A stretch of 64,000 nt of DNA from Chakrabartia godavariana (GTDB lineage Bacteria > Pseudomonadota > Alphaproteobacteria > Sphingomonadales > Sphingomonadaceae): positions 434,501-498,500 of the forward strand of contig RKSN01000001.1 in NCBI GenBank assembly GCA_005518185.1. Reading direction: 5' to 3'. The notes under the pieces were generated by a model, which was not told the origin of the DNA, made no database searches, and saw only the letters and a program-made list of their open reading frames with translations. Position 1 is the first letter of the stretch. Each line of letters starts with the position of its first letter. Positions 22,045 to 50,501 of the stretch are shown here, piece after piece. Position numbers and translations under genes: made by a program.

Positions 22045-22084
22045 CTCCGGGGGGACGACCGGCCATTTGAGTCGCGTCGCTGAC

Positions 22085-22272
22085 AGCGCGGGAGAGAGGT
22101 CCGTTTGACGGGCCCGCCGAAGGAGCAACCGCCCCGGAATCTCTCAGGCAAAAGGACCGCGCCGACACATGTGACGCTCTGGAAAGTGTTCCGGCAATTG
22201 CCGGGGCCGCCGAAGGGGTAACTCCGGTTTCGCATCGGAGGAAAGCTCTCAGGTTCCCGTGACAGAGGGGGT
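22085..22272 (+). promoter_or_regulatory. tandem glycine riboswitch
   Basis: Two glycine aptamers in series. The first has GGGAGAGAGG, CGCCGAAGGAGCAA and AATCTCTCAGGCAAAAGGAC. The second has GCTCTGGAAAG, GCCGCCGAAGGGGTAACTCC and AAAGCTCTCAGG followed by GACAGAGGGGG. The repeated GCCGAAGG-rCAA/TAA and CTCTCAGG blocks are the class hallmark. It ends a few bases before gcvT and is expected to switch the glycine-cleavage operon on when glycine is high. The final AGAGGGGG just before ATG 22276 could be the ribosome-binding site it sequesters. Confidence 0.95.
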
Positions 22273-44242: not shown

Positions 44243-45802
44243 ATGACCGTCCAGCCCTCCGATTCCATCCTCATCGTCGATTTCGGCAGCCAGGTGACCC
44301 AGCTGATCGCGCGCCGCGTGCGCGAAGCGGGCGTCTATTCCGAAATCGCCCCCTTCAACTCTGCCGAAGCGGCCTTTGCCCGGATGAAGCCCAAGGGCAT
44401 CATCCTGTCGGGCGGCCCGGCCTCGGTTCCGGTCGAAGGCTCCCCGCGCGCGCCGGAGGCGATGTTCGATGCGGGCATCCCCATTCTCGGCATCTGCTAC
44501 GGCCAGCAGACGATGTCGCATCAGCTGGGCGGCACGGTTGAGCCCGGCGACAGCGGTGAGTTCGGCCGCGCCTTCATCGATATTTCAGAAGACTGCGCGC
44601 TGTTTGAAGGCCTTTGGGAAAAGGGCTCCCGCCATCAGGTGTGGATGAGCCATGGCGACAAGGTGACCGCCTTTGCGCCCGGTTTCCGCGTCGTTGCGAC
44701 GACCGAGGGCGCGCCCTTCGCCGTGATCGCCGATGACGAACGCCGCTTCTACGGCACGCAGTTCCACCCGGAGGTCGTGCATACGCCCGACGGGGCGAAG
44801 CTCATTTCCAACTTCGTTCACAAGGTCTGCGGCCTGAAGGGCGACTGGACCATGGCGGAATTCCGCGCGACCAAGGTCGCCGAAATCCGTGCCCAAGTGG
44901 GCGACGGGCGCGTGATCTGCGGCCTGTCCGGCGGCGTTGACAGCTCGGTCGCGGCGATCCTTATCCATGAGGCGATTGGCGACCAGCTGACCTGCGTCTT
45001 TGTCGACCACGGCCTGCTCCGCATGAACGAACGCACGCAGGTTGAGGAGCTGTTCCGCGAACATTACCATATTCCACTCGTCGTCGTGGATGCCGAAGCA
45101 CGGTTCATGGCGGGACTGGCGGGCGTCACCGATCCCGAAAAGAAGCGCAAGTTCATCGGTGCCGAGTTCATCAACGTGTTCGAGGAAGAAGCCAAGAAGA
45201 TCGGCGGCGCCGATTTCCTGGCGCAGGGCACGCTCTATCCCGACGTGATCGAGTCGGTGTCGTTCACAGGTGGTCCGTCCGTCACGATCAAGAGCCACCA
45301 CAATGTGGGCGGCCTGCCCGAGCGCATGAACATGAAGCTCGTCGAGCCGCTGCGCGAACTCTTCAAGGATGAAGTCCGCGCGCTGGGGCGGGAACTTGGC
45401 TTGCCCGACGTCTTTGTCGGCCGCCATCCGTTCCCGGGGCCGGGCCTTGCCATCCGCATTCCGGGTGAAGTCACCAAGGAGCGCTGCGATATCCTGCGCA
45501 AGGCGGACGCCGCCTATCTCGAGGAAATCCGCACTGCGGGCCTCTATGACGCGATCTGGCAGGCCTTTGCCGTGCTGCTCCCCGTCCGCACCGTGGGCGT
45601 GATGGGCGATGGTCGCACCTATGACAGCGTCTGCGCGCTTCGCGCCGTCACCTCCACCGACGGGATGACGGCAGACGTCTACCCGTTTGACAGCGCCTTC
45701 CTGAGCCGTGTGGCGACGCGCATCGTCAACGAAGTGAAGGGTATCAACCGCGTGGTGTATGACTATACGTCAAAGCCGCCGGGCACGATCGAGTGGGAGT
45801 AG
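44243..45802 (+). CDS. guaA: GMP synthase (glutamine-hydrolysing)
   Basis: A 519-residue GuaA. The class I glutamine amidotransferase domain has the triad Cys85 ([12 protein letters not shown]), His175 and Glu177 ([10 protein letters not shown]). The ATP-pyrophosphatase domain has [16 protein letters not shown], and the dimerisation domain ends [17 protein letters not shown]. It converts XMP to GMP. The last codons (ATC GAG TGG GAG TAG) form the left boundary of an integrated element; the same codons recur at 50138. The ancestral stop was therefore probably TAA rather than TAG. Confidence 0.97.
45788..45801 (+). other. left attachment site in guaA (attL core)
   Basis: ATCGAGTGGGAGTA covers the last guaA codons Ile-Glu-Trp-Glu and the first two bases of the stop. 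It matches 13 of 14 bases with the copy at 50138-50151. Integration here leaves the GuaA protein sequence unchanged. Confidence 0.88.
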
Positions 45803-45817
45803 TTCATCTTCCAAAAG

Positions 45818-45832
45818 TGACGCATTTCTGAG
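45818..45832 (+). repeat. subterminal inverted repeat, left copy
   Basis: TGACGCATTTCTGAG, starting 17 bases after the attL core. It pairs as an inverted repeat, with two central mismatches, with 50105-50119 at the other end. This symmetric placement suggests a recombinase or accessory-factor binding site. Confidence 0.7.
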
Positions 45833-45849
45833 GTTTTTAAGTTTCACAT

Positions 45850-45927
45850 AACTTTCACACCGCAGAAAAAAGCGTTGCCCTTCAGTGCCACCCCACATAA
45901 AGTTGCACACGAACTTTCACACTGCGG
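45850..45927 (+). repeat. direct repeats AACTTTCACACYGCRG upstream of the integrase remnant
   Basis: AACTTTCACACCGCAG at 45850-45865 and AACTTTCACACTGCGG at 45912-45927 are the same 16-mer with two transitions, 62 bp apart. A degenerate copy (AACCTTCACATC) lies at 50071 near the other end. They could be arm-type sites for the integrase. This 181-bp gap between guaA and the integrase remnant holds no gene. Confidence 0.65.
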
Positions 45928-45983
45928 ACGCTATTGCGTTTCATAGGGTATGTGAGTTCTAAGGTGCAGCTTGGGGGGCGCTG

Positions 45984-46544
45984 ATGGTCTCAAAGAAGAA
46001 ACGCTTTGCTGATGATGAGATCCCTGTCTTCAATGACGGGTGCATCTACAAGCGCGGAGACTACTGGCACTTTCGTCTCTGGCTCCGCGATGAAAACAAG
46101 TATGCTCGGAAAAGCCTCAACACCACGAACCGTTCAACAGCGATTGAGCGTGGCGAAGCGTTCTACCTTGAGCTTCGTGCCAATCAGCAAATCGGCAAAA
46201 AATACTTCTCACTGACAGCTAAGGAAGGCGTCAGGCTCTATCTTGAGCATCGTGAGAAGGACATAGCGGTACGATCAATCGTGAAAGGTCGGCACGGCAC
46301 GATCACAACGCATCTGAATCACTGGCTGGATTTCATAGGTCGTGACACGAAACTGAAGGACTTAGGTCGCACAGCTTGCGAAAGCTATTTCAGTGAACGA
46401 ATGGCGAGAGCGAAGCGAGAGCTATCTTTTCGCTGTTCAGAGGGAGTGACGAGGACAATGCGTTCGGCGCAAAGCCACAAGCCATCAGCCCACCTCAGAA
46501 TGACCCGCAAATTCGTTGGACAACAATTGCCATCGCCGCACTAG
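45984..46544 (+). pseudogene. tyrosine-recombinase (phage-type integrase) fragment
   Basis: 186 codons. The first ~145 residues read as the N-terminal arm-binding part (DGCIYKRGDYWHFRLWLRDE) and SAM-like core-binding domain (HLNHWLDFIGRDTKLKDLG, ESYFSERMARAKRE) of a tyrosine recombinase. After residue ~148 the sequence changes to unrelated residues and ends. The whole catalytic domain with its R-H-R-Y residues is missing. The break coincides with an open frame of another gene starting near 46400, which points to a deletion. Position next to attL fits the element's original integrase. Confidence 0.82.
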
Positions 46545-47122
46545 GGCTTCCATACTTCGCATATCTTGGGTTTTTTAATGATCGGGTCTGGGTGGGCAGA
46601 TCGGACTATGTGGAGATGCCAGACACTTTCACGGATGCTCCTGGCCGCTCATTCATGCATTGCTGGGGCTTCAAAGGGATTGGCGCATACTGGAACGATG
46701 AGAAAGACCGCAAAAACAGCCTCGTAACCTTTGATAATGGTTTTACTAGAGACGGATACGGCGATGGCGTCTTTGCACTCTATATTGATGCGCAAGGGGC
46801 GATAGATATAGTCAGCAATGGGAAAAATGCTGTCTCATACAAGAAAGATGGATTTGAAATTGCTCTGAACAACCCAAACAACATCAACTTTCAAGTTTAC
46901 GGATGGGACAAGTCTCCGTCGGCCAAGAATTTTATGGTCACGGCGTCTGCCTACAATCCCGCTGACTCTCTTCAGAATGAAACCGTTCTATCGTTCATCA
47001 AAGACGATGATTTCAAAGGCTACAAAGCCATACTCACACGAAATCTCATCAGGGGATCGGGCGGCATGGTGGGGCCGTATGTCAGCGGGCAGGTCATGAT
47101 AGGCAACTGCATGGCCCAGTAA
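46399..47122 (+). pseudogene. 5'-truncated hypothetical membrane protein gene
   Basis: An open frame from just after a stop near 46398 to 47122 with no ATG in its first 190 bases. It reads GSDEDNAFGAKPQAISPPQN, a hydrophobic helix TIAIAALGLPYFAYLGFF, then a soluble domain (YVEMPDTFTDAPGRSFMHCW, FTRDGYGDGVFALYIDAQGA). A GTG at 46592 could start a shorter 176-residue version, but it has no good ribosome-binding site and would cut the protein after its TM helix. The gene probably lost its start in the deletion that also truncated the integrase. I do not recognise the family. Confidence 0.55.
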
Positions 47123-47159
47123 GCGGGCTGCGTTTATCTTTAATTGGCGGGGGAATGTG

Positions 47160-47390
47160 ATGGGAGACAAGCGGCTTTGGATCGGAGTGGCAGCGATGGC
47201 TGCGGCGATCTACTGGTTTGCCATCAGGCCCAGCCAGATCCGTGAACGATGCGCCAACGCAGCCATTGCCGAAGCGCAATCTGTGGCCCGAAGTACTGGC
47301 TCTCTCTACTCGGAAAAGGGCGTCTACAACACTCTCGTGCGGGACAACTCGTTCAGATTCTGCCTGCAACGAGCTGGCTTGGCGGATTAG
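47160..47390 (+). CDS. small single-pass membrane protein
   Basis: A 76-residue protein with one TM helix at the N-terminus (LWIGVAAMAAAIYWFAI) and a short extracytoplasmic tail with two cysteines (RERCANAAIAEAQSVARSTG). ATG 47160 follows GGCGGGGGAAT. It is 46 bp upstream of the J-domain gene and likely in the same transcript. No family is recognised. Confidence 0.6.
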   Translation: MGDKRLWIGVAAMAAAIYWFAIRPSQIRERCANAAIAEAQSVARSTGSLYSEKGVYNTLVRDNSFRFCLQRAGLAD

Positions 47391-47436
47391 TAGAGCAATA
47401 AATCAACACCGCGTTGCGGAGGGCAGGCGCACGGCT

Positions 47437-48609
47437 ATGAAAAATTATTACGAAATTCTTGGTGTTTCACCGAATTCCGAAACCGAAGTGATCACGGCAG
47501 CATACAAGGCCATGATGCGAAAGTATCACCCAGACACTAACGGTTCGTCAGCTGCGGCAGAGCGGGCGAAGGAAATCAATGAGGCTTATGAGGTTTTGAA
47601 AAATCCCATTAGCCGCCGTGAGTATGATGCGAAGATGGGCCATGCTGAATCTCCAGCAGCACAATCTCCTGCTGCTCCTGCTGCTCCACCTCCACCTCCG
47701 CCTCCGCCTCCACCTACAACCAGCACTCAAGTATCTGAGCCCAATAGCGGCGGAGAGAAGACTCCGTTCATTGGTGAGCGAGGCGAGCTGAGGGTTTGGA
47801 CTATCTTTGCAGCGGCATATGTCGCCATTGCTTTGCTGTATTTCGGGCCGACTAGGATATCAGTATCAATAGGACGCAGCCCTCTTGACCTTGCAGCGGA
47901 GATAGCTGGGTCAGCCTTGCTTCCGTTCGGTTTGGGATTTGCCATAGCGTGGCTCTGGCGAGCGTTGTCTTCATCTATTTCCGAACCAAAAACAGATCGG
48001 AAGCGTTGGCTGGCGATTCAATTCGTTTTTATCGCCATTCTCGTTTTCAATAAGTCCATGCTGGAAAAAGCAAGGGAAGATGAGGCTGCAGCAACGGCAC
48101 TTTCAGCCCCTTCGTCAAGTGCTCCTGTTGAAAATGCTGAGGCTCCGCCTGAAGCTGTTTCATCGGTGCCCCCCATAAGCAGTCCTGAAGTGCCCCACAT
48201 CGCGGAATCTCCGCCAAATCCAGATAAGGAATCCGAGACTCAGGGCGGTGAGATTTTCAGCGATCCCGCATATGATGAAGGCGTGGACTATCTCTTGAAT
48301 GCGGCTCGCACGGCTGCAAGCGATAGCTTTTATGCAAATGAATATTCAAAAAATGGAGCGTATACTCAGCAAGATATCATTGCGTCACTGCTGAAACGAA
48401 AATCAGAAGGCCCAACTGGTGGCAATTCGTATGTTGTATATAAAGCATTGATGGATGGTGAAATATATCCCCGCTGCAGGAAAAATGGTCGGGTAGATGA
48501 CGGTTGCACCGACTTTGACAGACGGTTTGATTTCGCTCCGAATCCCAGTTTGGCTTCGCAGATTAAGCGGAAGAAGGGCTGCTATAATAGACAGAATCCA
48601 GGCTGCTGA
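47437..48609 (+). CDS. membrane-anchored J-domain protein
   Basis: A 390-residue protein. The N-terminal J domain (residues 1-70: MKNYYEILGVSPNSETEVIT, MMRKYHPDTNGSS, NEAYEVLKNPISRREYDAK) has the essential HPD. It is followed by an Ala/Pro linker with a run of ten prolines, two or three hydrophobic segments (VWTIFAAAYVAIALLYFG, LLPFGLGFAIAWLWRAL, FVFIAILVFN), a disordered Pro/Ser/Glu stretch and a C-terminal domain with four cysteines. J domains stimulate DnaK-type chaperones. The C-terminal part probably sets the target but is not recognised. It is followed after 23 bp by a protease gene. Confidence 0.8.
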   Translation: MKNYYEILGVSPNSETEVITAAYKAMMRKYHPDTNGSSAAAERAKEINEAYEVLKNPISRREYDAKMGHAESPAAQSPAAPAAPPPPPPPPPPTTSTQVSEPNSGGEKTPFIGERGELRVWTIFAAAYVAIALLYFGPTRISVSIGRSPLDLAAEIAGSALLPFGLGFAIAWLWRALSSSISEPKTDRKRWLAIQFVFIAILVFNKSMLEKAREDEAAATALSAPSSSAPVENAEAPPEAVSSVPPISSPEVPHIAESPPNPDKESETQGGEIFSDPAYDEGVDYLLNAARTAASDSFYANEYSKNGAYTQQDIIASLLKRKSEGPTGGNSYVVYKALMDGEIYPRCRKNGRVDDGCTDFDRRFDFAPNPSLASQIKRKKGCYNRQNPGC

Positions 48610-48632
48610 TAGCGCCACTGAGGGTATGAGCA

Positions 48633-49073
48633 ATGAAGCAGCTGCCTAAGGCCTTACTTGTTCTGCAACTTCTCCATTTCGCTTGGTCAACGGAGAGTGT
48701 TGCTAAGCCCTCACTCTCGCCTTCGCCTGAGCAAGTGCTAGCTGACGCAGCCCGCTATACAGTCAAAATCAAAGTTCAGAATGAGATTGCCTTCAACCAA
48801 GACGAGGCGGGCTCAGCATCTGGCACAGGCTTTCTGGTAGATCGTGAACGGGGTTGGTTGTTGACGAATGCTCATGTCGCAACTCGTTCTCCGAGCGTAA
48901 TCAAAGTTTCGTTCAAGGATGGCGAACAAATTGAAGCTAAGCGGCTTCACGTGGATCCGCTTATTGATCTTGCGATCCTGTCCATTTCTCCAAAATCCAT
49001 TCCCGCAAACGCAACTGAAGCCCAACTGGCATGCAATAGCGAACCAGCAGCTGGGACTTGCTGTAATAGCTGA
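48633..49073 (+). pseudogene. truncated trypsin-like serine protease (HtrA/DegP-like)
   Basis: 146 codons with a signal-like N-terminus (ALLVLQLLHFAWSTESVA). The first half of a trypsin-like domain follows: GSASGTGFLVDRERGWLLTN then AHV with the catalytic His, and DPLIDLAILSIS with the catalytic Asp. The frame ends soon after (EAQLACNSE) before the region that should carry the GNSGGP-type serine, so it cannot be active. The end coincides with the 3' end of a gene on the opposite strand. Together these suggest a deletion joining two gene remnants. Confidence 0.75.
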
Positions 49074-49344
49074 CCGTTGCATCGTTGGTGCGAATGCGGG
49101 GGAAAGCTAGGCGAACGACAGGACTGAAATTGTAGCGATTTCCTGTGTTGCGATAGGTGATGTTGTTTTCAGCATAGAGGCGATCAAGATAGCCAGCTTC
49201 GTTGCGAGCCTCACGCCACCAGAAATAAGTCTCAGCAAGATTGCGATGCAGGAGTTCGCGGGAGCTTTCCGCAAGATTATGCTGTTTCTCAGCCCTGTCT
49301 TGTAACGCTTGAAGCTGCTGACTCAGTTCCTGCTCGTTTGCCAT
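48961..49344 (-). pseudogene. 3'-truncated hypothetical protein gene
   Basis: 127 codons from ATG 49344, preceded by GGGGGCGC on this strand. The N-terminal half is helical and probably coiled-coil (ANEQELSQQLQALQDRAEK), followed by ETYFWWREARNEAGYLDRLY and FSPVVRLAFPRIRTNDATVS. The last ~35 codons run antisense through the protease fragment, so the true C-terminus is missing. The body resembles small phage-like or island proteins, but I cannot name a family. Confidence 0.55.
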
Positions 49345-49406
49345 TGCGCCCCCTTCTGCGAATGCAAGCTACCATCCGATATCGCGGTTGCAACAGCATC
49401 ATGCGA

Positions 49407-49423
49407 ACTTAAAAATTTTAAGT
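49407..49423. promoter_or_regulatory. AT-rich perfect palindrome, possible operator
   Basis: ACTTAAAAATTTTAAGT has 8-bp arms around a single central A. It lies between the divergent genes starting at 49344 (-) and 49510 (+). Its place suggests a regulator-binding site or promoter element, but no regulator is encoded in the element. Confidence 0.45.
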
Positions 49424-49509
49424 AAGAACCACTTCAATGGCTGGAATTCGGTAGGAATATCAGAGGTAAGGATTCAGATTCGCATTCTAGGAAAAAGGAG
49501 AATGTGAAT

Positions 49510-49941
49510 ATGTCCGCTATCGCAAATTTGAAGCTAGTTGAGTTCAAACCGCAGCATGCCAGCGGTGCTGTGTTCGTTCGTCGTAGGAAGTTGGCTGACA
49601 AGATTGCTCAGCAGATCAGCCTTGCGTCTGATCCTGCATATGCCCCCTCCAAGATTATCACTGTCGTTGATGAAAACGGCAATGAACAGCGCCGCGAAGT
49701 CGCCAAGCGCATCAAGCGTTGGTGGGTTACAAACGCTGATGGGTCTGTGCAGCTTACGATCCGCTATGGCAGTAGGCCGATTGAGCTTGCGAAGGGCAAG
49801 AATGCCATTGAGCTAAGCTCAGCTTCAGAGATTGCGTCCACGCTATCTCTGATCTCCGATGCGGTGATGGGCGGTGAGCTTGATGCTGCATTGGCAGTTA
49901 GCTCTGCGTTCGGACGGAAGCTCAAAAAGAGTGGAGCATAG
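49510..49941 (+). CDS. DUF6641-like hypothetical protein
   Basis: A 143-residue protein (MSAIANLKLVEFKPQHASGA, RREVAKRIKRWWVTNADGS, LTIRYGSRPIELAKGKNAIE). This pattern matches what I recall of DUF6641, a family found on islands and plasmids; the family name is from memory and should be checked. Function is unknown. ATG 49510 is chosen over GTG 49504 because homology begins MSA; AAGGAG lies ten bases before it. Confidence 0.6.
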   Translation: MSAIANLKLVEFKPQHASGAVFVRRRKLADKIAQQISLASDPAYAPSKIITVVDENGNEQRREVAKRIKRWWVTNADGSVQLTIRYGSRPIELAKGKNAIELSSASEIASTLSLISDAVMGGELDAALAVSSAFGRKLKKSGA

Positions 49942-50104
49942 CTCCGCTCTTTCATGATTATGCTGACTTCGCTGCAATTGATCTTGTTGCTCCCTGTGAA
50001 GGATCAGGGCATCAAGTCATTGGAAAATATGAATGAGAAGGCTCTGGCTCACATGCTCAATCTTGCACAAAACCTTCACATCTCTATTACTGTCTCAGGA
50101 ATGT

Positions 50105-50119
50105 CTCAGATTTGCGTCA
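50105..50119 (-). repeat. subterminal inverted repeat, right copy
   Basis: CTCAGATTTGCGTCA on the + strand. Its reverse complement, TGACGCAAATCTGAG, matches the left copy at 45818 except for two central bases. It lies 18 bases inside the attR core. Confidence 0.7.
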
Positions 50120-50137
50120 TTCCTGAACTAGGTAGCT

Positions 50138-50151
50138 ATTGAGTGGGAGTA
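50138..50151 (+). other. right attachment site (attR core), guaA tail copy
   Basis: ATTGAGTGGGAGTA, directly followed by A. Read in frame it gives Ile-Glu-Trp-Glu-stop, exactly the C-terminus of GuaA. It marks the point where chromosomal sequence resumes, and lies 6 bases before the start of the ArsC/Spx-like gene. Confidence 0.88.
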
Positions 50152-50156
50152 AGGGG

Positions 50157-50501
50157 ATGGTTTTGGTCTTCGGAATTCCCAATTGCGACACCGTGAAGAA
50201 AGCGCGCACCTGGCTCACCGACAACGGGGTCGCGTATGATTTTCACGACTATAAGAAATCCGGAATTGATGCGGCGCACCTTACGCGCTGGTGCGATGCC
50301 TTGGGGTGGGACAAGGTGCTCAACCGGGCGGGCACGACCTTCAAGAAGCTGCCCGATGCGGACAAGGCGGACCTCGACCAGGCCAAGGCCGTTGCGCTGA
50401 TGCTGGCACAGCCGTCGATGATCAAGCGGCCGATTGTGGAATATGCAGGCGGGCTGCTCTGCGGCTTCAAGCCTGAGGAGTGGTCCGCTCGCCTGGGTTA
50501 G
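50157..50501 (+). CDS. ArsC/Spx family protein (YffB-like)
   Basis: A 114-residue thioredoxin-fold protein starting MVLVFGIPNCDTVKKARTWL, with a single cysteine in NCDTVKKA as in YffB/Spx-like proteins. Its C-terminal block is PSMIKRPIVEYAGGLLCGF. The family includes glutathione-dependent reductases; the native substrate is unclear. ATG 50157 is chosen; the GGAG serving as ribosome-binding site falls inside the attR core. Before the island arrived this gene probably followed guaA directly. Confidence 0.87.
   Translation: MVLVFGIPNCDTVKKARTWLTDNGVAYDFHDYKKSGIDAAHLTRWCDALGWDKVLNRAGTTFKKLPDADKADLDQAKAVALMLAQPSMIKRPIVEYAGGLLCGFKPEEWSARLG

Follow-up and report, generated by a model that had tools for sequence, protein, structure and literature searches.

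A decayed island at the 3′ end of guaA in Chakrabartia godavariana, very probably the remnant of an element inserted by its own tyrosine integrase

How did a block of low-GC DNA come to lie between guaA and the gene that follows it? The question is raised by a 64,000-nucleotide stretch from Chakrabartia godavariana, a member of the Sphingomonadaceae (GenBank assembly GCA_005518185.1, contig RKSN01000001.1, positions 434,501 to 498,500 of the forward strand), which is called the window below. An earlier note, made from the letters of the window, had described a small decayed island of 4.35 kb placed exactly at the end of guaA, bracketed by a direct repeat and carrying an integrase remnant next to its left end. 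This description is borne out in its main lines, and the island is very probably the decayed, non-autonomous remnant of an integrative element that was inserted at the guaA 3′ end by its own tyrosine integrase. The features on which this reading rests are the following; G012 is a genome of the same genus, and G329 and G349 are family genomes, the former from another genus.

44243–45802, + strand: guaA (GMP synthase), an intact host gene (519-aa open reading frame, ORF) whose 3′ end is the attachment site; a copy 96% identical stands at the empty site of G012.
45788–45801, + strand: attL core ATCGAGTGGGAGTA, containing GAGTGGGA, a core given for guaA islands in the available excerpts of PMC9376610 and PMC7775301.
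45984–46417, + strand: N-terminal remnant of a tyrosine integrase, about 145 codons of about 413 aa, catalytic domain lost; 80% identical to the G329 and 85% to the G349 integrase, with DNA homology ending at 46417.
49057–49344, − strand: N-terminal remnant, 96 codons, of a 578-aa protein; 91% identical over 97 aa to the full-length homologue in the G329 island (L093:8543-10279).
49504–49941, + strand: intact gene for a DUF6641 protein of 145 aa (143 from the ATG at 49510); PF20346, E 4e-21; 92% identical to its G329 counterpart.
50138–50151, + strand: attR core ATTGAGTGGGAGTA, immediately preceded by GTAGCT in the window and in G329 alike.
50157–50501, + strand: ArsC/Spx-family gene (PF03960); a copy 76% identical directly follows guaA at the empty site of G012.

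The two copies of the repeat, which agree at 13 of 14 bases, are spaced 4,350 bp apart, and the window's + strand has no third copy with at most one mismatch. Such a repeat alone is weak evidence, because 8 of 400 random 14-mers from the window have a copy with at most one mismatch inside 20 kb. The probability that chance would put one copy on the stop codon of guaA and the other immediately ahead of the native gene that follows is about 3e-6 (20 placements, equal base frequencies). Both copies hold GAGTGGGA; the left one forms the end of guaA, which reads ATCGAGTGGGAGTAG, and the right one lies just 5′ of the ATG of the ArsC/Spx gene at 50157, as expected of a guaA 3′-end island. The GC content of the bracketed DNA is 0.503, against 0.634 and 0.635 in the 5-kb flanks, which agrees with the low GC noticed before, and no tRNA gene was found within the window. 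The earlier note had taken the right copy for the old GuaA C-terminus, and this copy does read Ile-Glu-Trp-Glu-stop. However, when a tyrosine recombinase inserts an element, the left part of the right copy is derived from the element, and the old guaA end should therefore be the left copy.

The ancestral order predicted in the note, guaA followed directly by the ArsC/Spx gene, is found in three of the 12 other genomes of the genus that were compared (G012, G001 and G008). Their junctions read ATTGAGTGGGAGTGACCCGAATG, ATTGAGTGGGAATAAGCCAATG and ATTGAGTGGGAATAAGGCCATG, respectively; they are equivalents of the empty site that had been foreseen, whose exact string was not seen in the relatives examined. 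The note would have given up the idea of insertion had all relatives carried the 4.35 kb and none an empty site, and these three congeners are at odds with such a picture. Three further genomes (G002, G009 and G003) have 0.4–1.4 kb between the two genes and no second core in the scan, and G006 has a different insert bracketed by the core. The other five are uninformative: either guaA is distant from the ArsC gene or the two are on separate contigs (G010, G005 and G011), or guaA is only partial (G004 and G007).

The ends of the island are homologous to those of an intact guaA island in G329, 17,650 bp (17.65 kb) long, which has one core at guaA (L123:5892), a second at L093:11542 and a full integrase. 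Window positions 45788–46417 and 49057–50151 are 78–87% identical to the G329 ends at the DNA level: the left end at 78% over 631 columns, the right end at 87% over 367 bp and 79% over 717 columns. The matched G329 spans are 630 bp on the left and about 1.1 kb on the right, barring a piece of about 485 bp present only in G329, and the 26 bases around the joined ends are identical in the two. The left arm is also 83% identical to that of G349, and its homology to both genomes stops at one base, 46417; homology to G329 resumes at 49057. These breaks divide the window's island into two element ends and a different middle of 2,639 bp. Three empty sites within the genus, fuller islands of this family that occupy the position in other genera (G329, G374 and G378) and the homology of both ends to G329 establish that the DNA was inserted in the window's lineage.

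The same two junctions truncate the integrase and the second gene, so that the island is decayed, as had been proposed. The G329 island shares the site, the core, both arms, the integrase over the common part, DUF6641 and the second truncated gene with the window, but has a full integrase, a full 578-aa protein beside a transglycosylase-like gene, a type IIG-like gene and a resolvase, and lacks the 2.64-kb middle. Its catalytic domain occupies residues 205–399 of the 420-aa integrase ORF (Pfam), and the cut in the window lies before it. The integrase fragment, whose position beside the left end was confirmed by homology, has no Pfam match at E ≤ 0.1; over about 140 residues, it shares 51% and 58% identity with the guaA-adjacent integrases of G374 (413 aa) and G378 (453-aa ORF), respectively. 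Divergence between the window and G329 is mostly synonymous in all three shared genes, with nonsynonymous (dN) and synonymous (dS) values of 0.038 and 1.26 for DUF6641, 0.13 and 1.16 for the integrase fragment, and 0.05 and 0.62 for the second fragment. All three were therefore working genes for most of that time, and the truncations are probably younger than most of the divergence. In G329, the gene of the 578-aa protein adjoins L093:7198-8598 (both on the − strand), whose product we take by eye to be transglycosylase-like and which has no family match; the two may form a DNA-modification pair.

The following course of events would account for these observations. An element's own tyrosine integrase would have inserted it within the final bases of guaA, presumably through recombination at the core; on the left, the end of guaA would have been restored, and a further copy of the core would have come to lie ahead of the ArsC/Spx gene. 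The catalytic domain of the integrase and most of the interior would have been lost afterwards, through deletions or through one replacement of the interior. Both att cores, arm-type sites on both sides, the intact DUF6641 gene and 2.64 kb of cargo cut at both ends would be what remains. Such a remnant would be immobile alone, but because it has kept its end sites, a related integrase might yet excise it in trans.

Candidate arm sites lie on both sides of the island.

45840–45859, + strand: first tandem pair of arm-site-like motifs (45840 and 45851).
45901–45921, + strand: second tandem pair (45901 and 45913).
50061–50080, + strand: right-arm pair about 70 bp inside the core; 50061 fits the motif used, 50072 by eye.

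The tandem motif, near AGTTTCACA, occurs between core and integrase 135 times in 78 left arms, against 0.5 in shuffles, and at least twice in 45 of the 78 arms; it is one of four forms tried after the arms had been inspected, the other three giving 45 against 1.25, 76 against 1.85 and 45 against 2.55 in shuffled arms. For other elements, 19 candidate right ends at 18 loci gave 29 matches, both strands counted, against 2.65 in shuffles. Seven of the 19 have no match; a pair close to the motif can be made out by eye in three of them (G329, L154 and the first core of L187), and L151, the second core of L187, L200 and L160 may not be true right ends. By their layout, the tandem motifs are probably integrase arm sites. 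Their presence on both ends, together with DUF6641, places the island among guaA/DUF6641 elements whose integrases are not of the P4 type, a group defined here.

To what kind of element did the remnant belong? As the note had stated, the 3′ end of guaA is a known island site. GIsul2 (PMC9376610) and ICERspD18B (PMC7775301) are described, as far as the excerpts go, as inserted there at the 8-bp core GAGTGGGA that the window also has, and another excerpt gives guaA as a site of integrative and conjugative elements (ICEs) in Mesorhizobium (PMC8627217). Islands at guaA often carry P4-type integrases with AlpA nearby, according to the available part of PMC7775301, which cites Song et al. 2012. In contrast, the six integrases of the window's family that were scanned have PF00589 and lack Arm-DNA-bind_3, and both domains are present in the guaA integrase of G222; the comparison with GIsul2 and ICERspD18B covers site and core. 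The integrase remnant aligns with family integrases downstream of guaA (alignment A3) and belongs with them, not with the P4 type. Neither relaxase nor secretion genes were detected among eight island ORFs scanned, and the island does not class as an ICE. Because guaA islands with this core are already known, it is ordinary in kind: both the hotspot and the type of element that left this remnant are known, and the integrase lineage is a distinct one. No paper on this lineage was found by title among the matches listed, subscription literature such as Song et al. 2012 being outside the scope. In G222 (L127, C1:2150869-2165775), guaA with its P4-like integrase is accompanied by three core copies within 15 kb, as tandem islands would give.

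A scan of the genome collection with the six integrases yielded 112 relatives, of which the best 80 were kept for locus counts; this survey overlaps the family-genome survey (G329, G349, G211, G201 and G378). In 74 of these best 80, guaA ends 28–532 bp (mostly 160–190) before the integrase; four of the remaining six have the core 173–180 bp before it, and L137 and L162 have neither. The integrase is full in 56 of the 80 loci, cut by contig ends in 14, and ends inside the contig in 10, one of which is L208 of Erythrobacter sanguineus. Among 397 family genomes, seven (own included) have a match at E ≤ 1e-30, six at guaA and one, in G201, elsewhere. By record titles among the matches listed, the family extends through alpha-, beta- and gammaproteobacteria; tblastn at the limits used found no G329 integrase in phage and plasmid records. 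Eight cargo proteins of relatives, picked by eye rather than covering the whole cargo, were submitted to PADLOC. G374 has a type II methylase and a nuclease, G378 a type I restriction system and G329 the type IIG-like gene, and islands of this family therefore carry defence genes.

The DUF6641 gene is the one intact gene shared with G329, and the protein has a match at E ≤ 0.001 in 23 of 397 family genomes. Its hidden Markov model matches in 32 of the best 80 integrase loci and in 21 of the 35 that have a full integrase and at least 2.5 kb downstream, three of these 21 being short partial matches. Conversely, of the 27 loci that the family search gave for DUF6641, 7 have an integrase no more than 1.5 kb away, against none of 47 control loci, which were ArsC and guaA-like protein loci rather than random ones; five of the seven integrases are divergent and seeded the broader model that gave this count, and a narrower model without them finds six. 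An AlphaFold2 (AF2) model from 48 sequences is fair (alpha/beta, pLDDT 80.8, pTM 0.65) and has no fold match at E ≤ 0.001 in the Protein Data Bank (PDB) or among viral models. No PDB sequence relative was found, the one match of a single search standing at E 0.49, and tblastn at the limits used found none in phage and plasmid records, though PHROG 31551 matches. DUF6641 was not found mentioned in the accessible literature. From these associations, our best guess is that DUF6641 has a role in recombination and may serve the recombination module; it could, for instance, be a directionality factor or regulate the integrase. We offer tentatively, without expecting it to hold in full, a bolder proposal: DUF6641 would be a dedicated partner of this kind for the non-P4 guaA integrases of a broad family, and islands with a cut integrase, the present one and that of Erythrobacter sanguineus included, would be parasitic derivatives that depend on full relatives and retain arms, cores and DUF6641.

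It may be asked whether the island is simply decayed or represents a streamlined class that retains cores, arm sites and DUF6641 and is moved by an integrase supplied in trans, as cis-mobilizable elements are. The kept end sites are in line with this, and Erythrobacter sanguineus DSM 11032 offers a parallel: a 4.87-kb guaA island (L208:9815-14694) with both cores, an integrase cut to 83 aa and, near attR, a DUF6641 protein 75% identical to that of the window, but with another middle, holding an IS630-like transposase and two related secreted proteins (by eye). The ten integrase matches that end inside a contig point the same way, as does the congener G006, whose core-bracketed insert has no integrase. 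However, some of the ten could be frameshifts or assembly faults, no further family integrase occurs in the own genome at E ≤ 1e-30, and four genes are severed at the junctions, which is what simple deletion would produce. The dN and dS of the integrase fragment reflect mostly the time before truncation and are no proof of present use. We regard a streamlined class as unlikely.

The G006 insert (L102:3540-5949) spans 2.4 kb between guaA and the ArsC/Spx gene and has arsR-, arsenate reductase- and ACR3-like genes (labels by eye). At its right end is AGTTGCAAAGTAGTTACAAAG, which resembles the arm-site pair in a variant form; by the strict motif there is no match in this insert or in the E. sanguineus left arm.

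The middle of the window's island holds four frames.

46418–47122, + strand: open frame, lacking a start codon at the junction, for a membrane protein (by eye).
47157–47390, + strand: small protein of 77 aa with one membrane segment (by eye), no family match.
47437–48609, + strand: J-domain protein of 390 aa with membrane segments (by eye); PF00226, E 6.9e-21.
48633–49056, + strand: first 141 residues of a trypsin-like (HtrA-type) protease, secreted (by eye); PF13365, E 1e-10, profile positions 1–70 of 144; cut at 49056/49057.

The first frame has no relative besides the own genome in 296 genomes of the order, and none in plasmids or viral contigs; its AF2 model (pLDDT 38.8) was too poor to give a fold. 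The J-domain protein retains the HPD motif, and for its C-terminal part no credible relative turned up in 298 family genomes or, by peptide patterns, in the genome and viral collections; a G178 match (E 6e-4) was rejected as the linker of a pyruvate dehydrogenase subunit (by eye). The protease is cut mid-domain, the second half of the domain being missing. Beyond the known domains, no relative of the middle was found in the searches made, and the earlier view that the cargo fits no island type holds for this segment; it does not hold for the ends and DUF6641, which belong to a recognisable family. The membrane, J-domain and trypsin-like proteins could be a present or former anti-phage or stress module acquired as cargo, in keeping with the restriction-modification genes of G374, G378 and G329. 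PADLOC, however, gave only weak trypsin matches for the window's cargo, which were not accepted as a defence system, the protease is incomplete, the membrane protein lacks its start and no second copy was found, and we think such a module improbable. Hardly credible is a chance repeat around an ordinary lineage-specific low-GC region of no mobile origin: the frequency of such repeats among random 14-mers favours it, but empty sites in three congeners, the integrase homology and the match of both ends to an island in another genus stand against it.

Several points weigh against the account of a decayed guaA element or against parts of it. The element is known here from assembled sequence alone. 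A single interior replacement fits the junctions as well as two deletions do, and there is a third length difference, in which window positions 49424–49437 face the piece of about 485 bp in G329 and to which no direction is assigned. The lack of a second family integrase in the own genome, mentioned above, counts here too. Fourteen of the 35 loci gave no DUF6641 (in one of them, L131, it lies past the stretch covered), and the protein occurs in L097–L101, of about 19 kb each, with no integrase found nearby; it is therefore not obligatory. The contrast with shuffles overstates independence, because the arm motif was chosen from these very arms, which are related to one another.

Some neighbouring observations complete the survey. 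An ORF at 49954–50142 was rejected as a gene, as it lies in the right arm and has a stop within its frame in G329, across which its 53% tblastn match ran. The core pattern matches in at least one place in 236 of 298 family genomes. The own genome has a further guaA-like match of 23 bp (L002), which stands in an unrelated setting and was taken as chance, and a core-bracketed 2.2-kb LysR/SDR-like pair (by eye) in G114 (L128:2590-4835), in which neither integrase nor arm motifs were found, is not claimed as an island. A glycine riboswitch lies at window positions 22079–22169 (Rfam RF00504, 73.3 bits).

For the Sphingomonadales, the locus clearly illustrates that guaA is an island hotspot, and three relatives of the island have restriction-modification genes. 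The locus also outlines a guaA-associated family of non-P4 integrases, for which an att anatomy of a core and tandem arm motifs on both sides is proposed. A circular form, which would carry GTAGCTATTGAGTGGGAGTAGTTCAT, is not expected of the remnant. The interest of the island lies in the repeated occurrence of integrase-cut islands and in the link of DUF6641, an uncharacterised family, to integrases.

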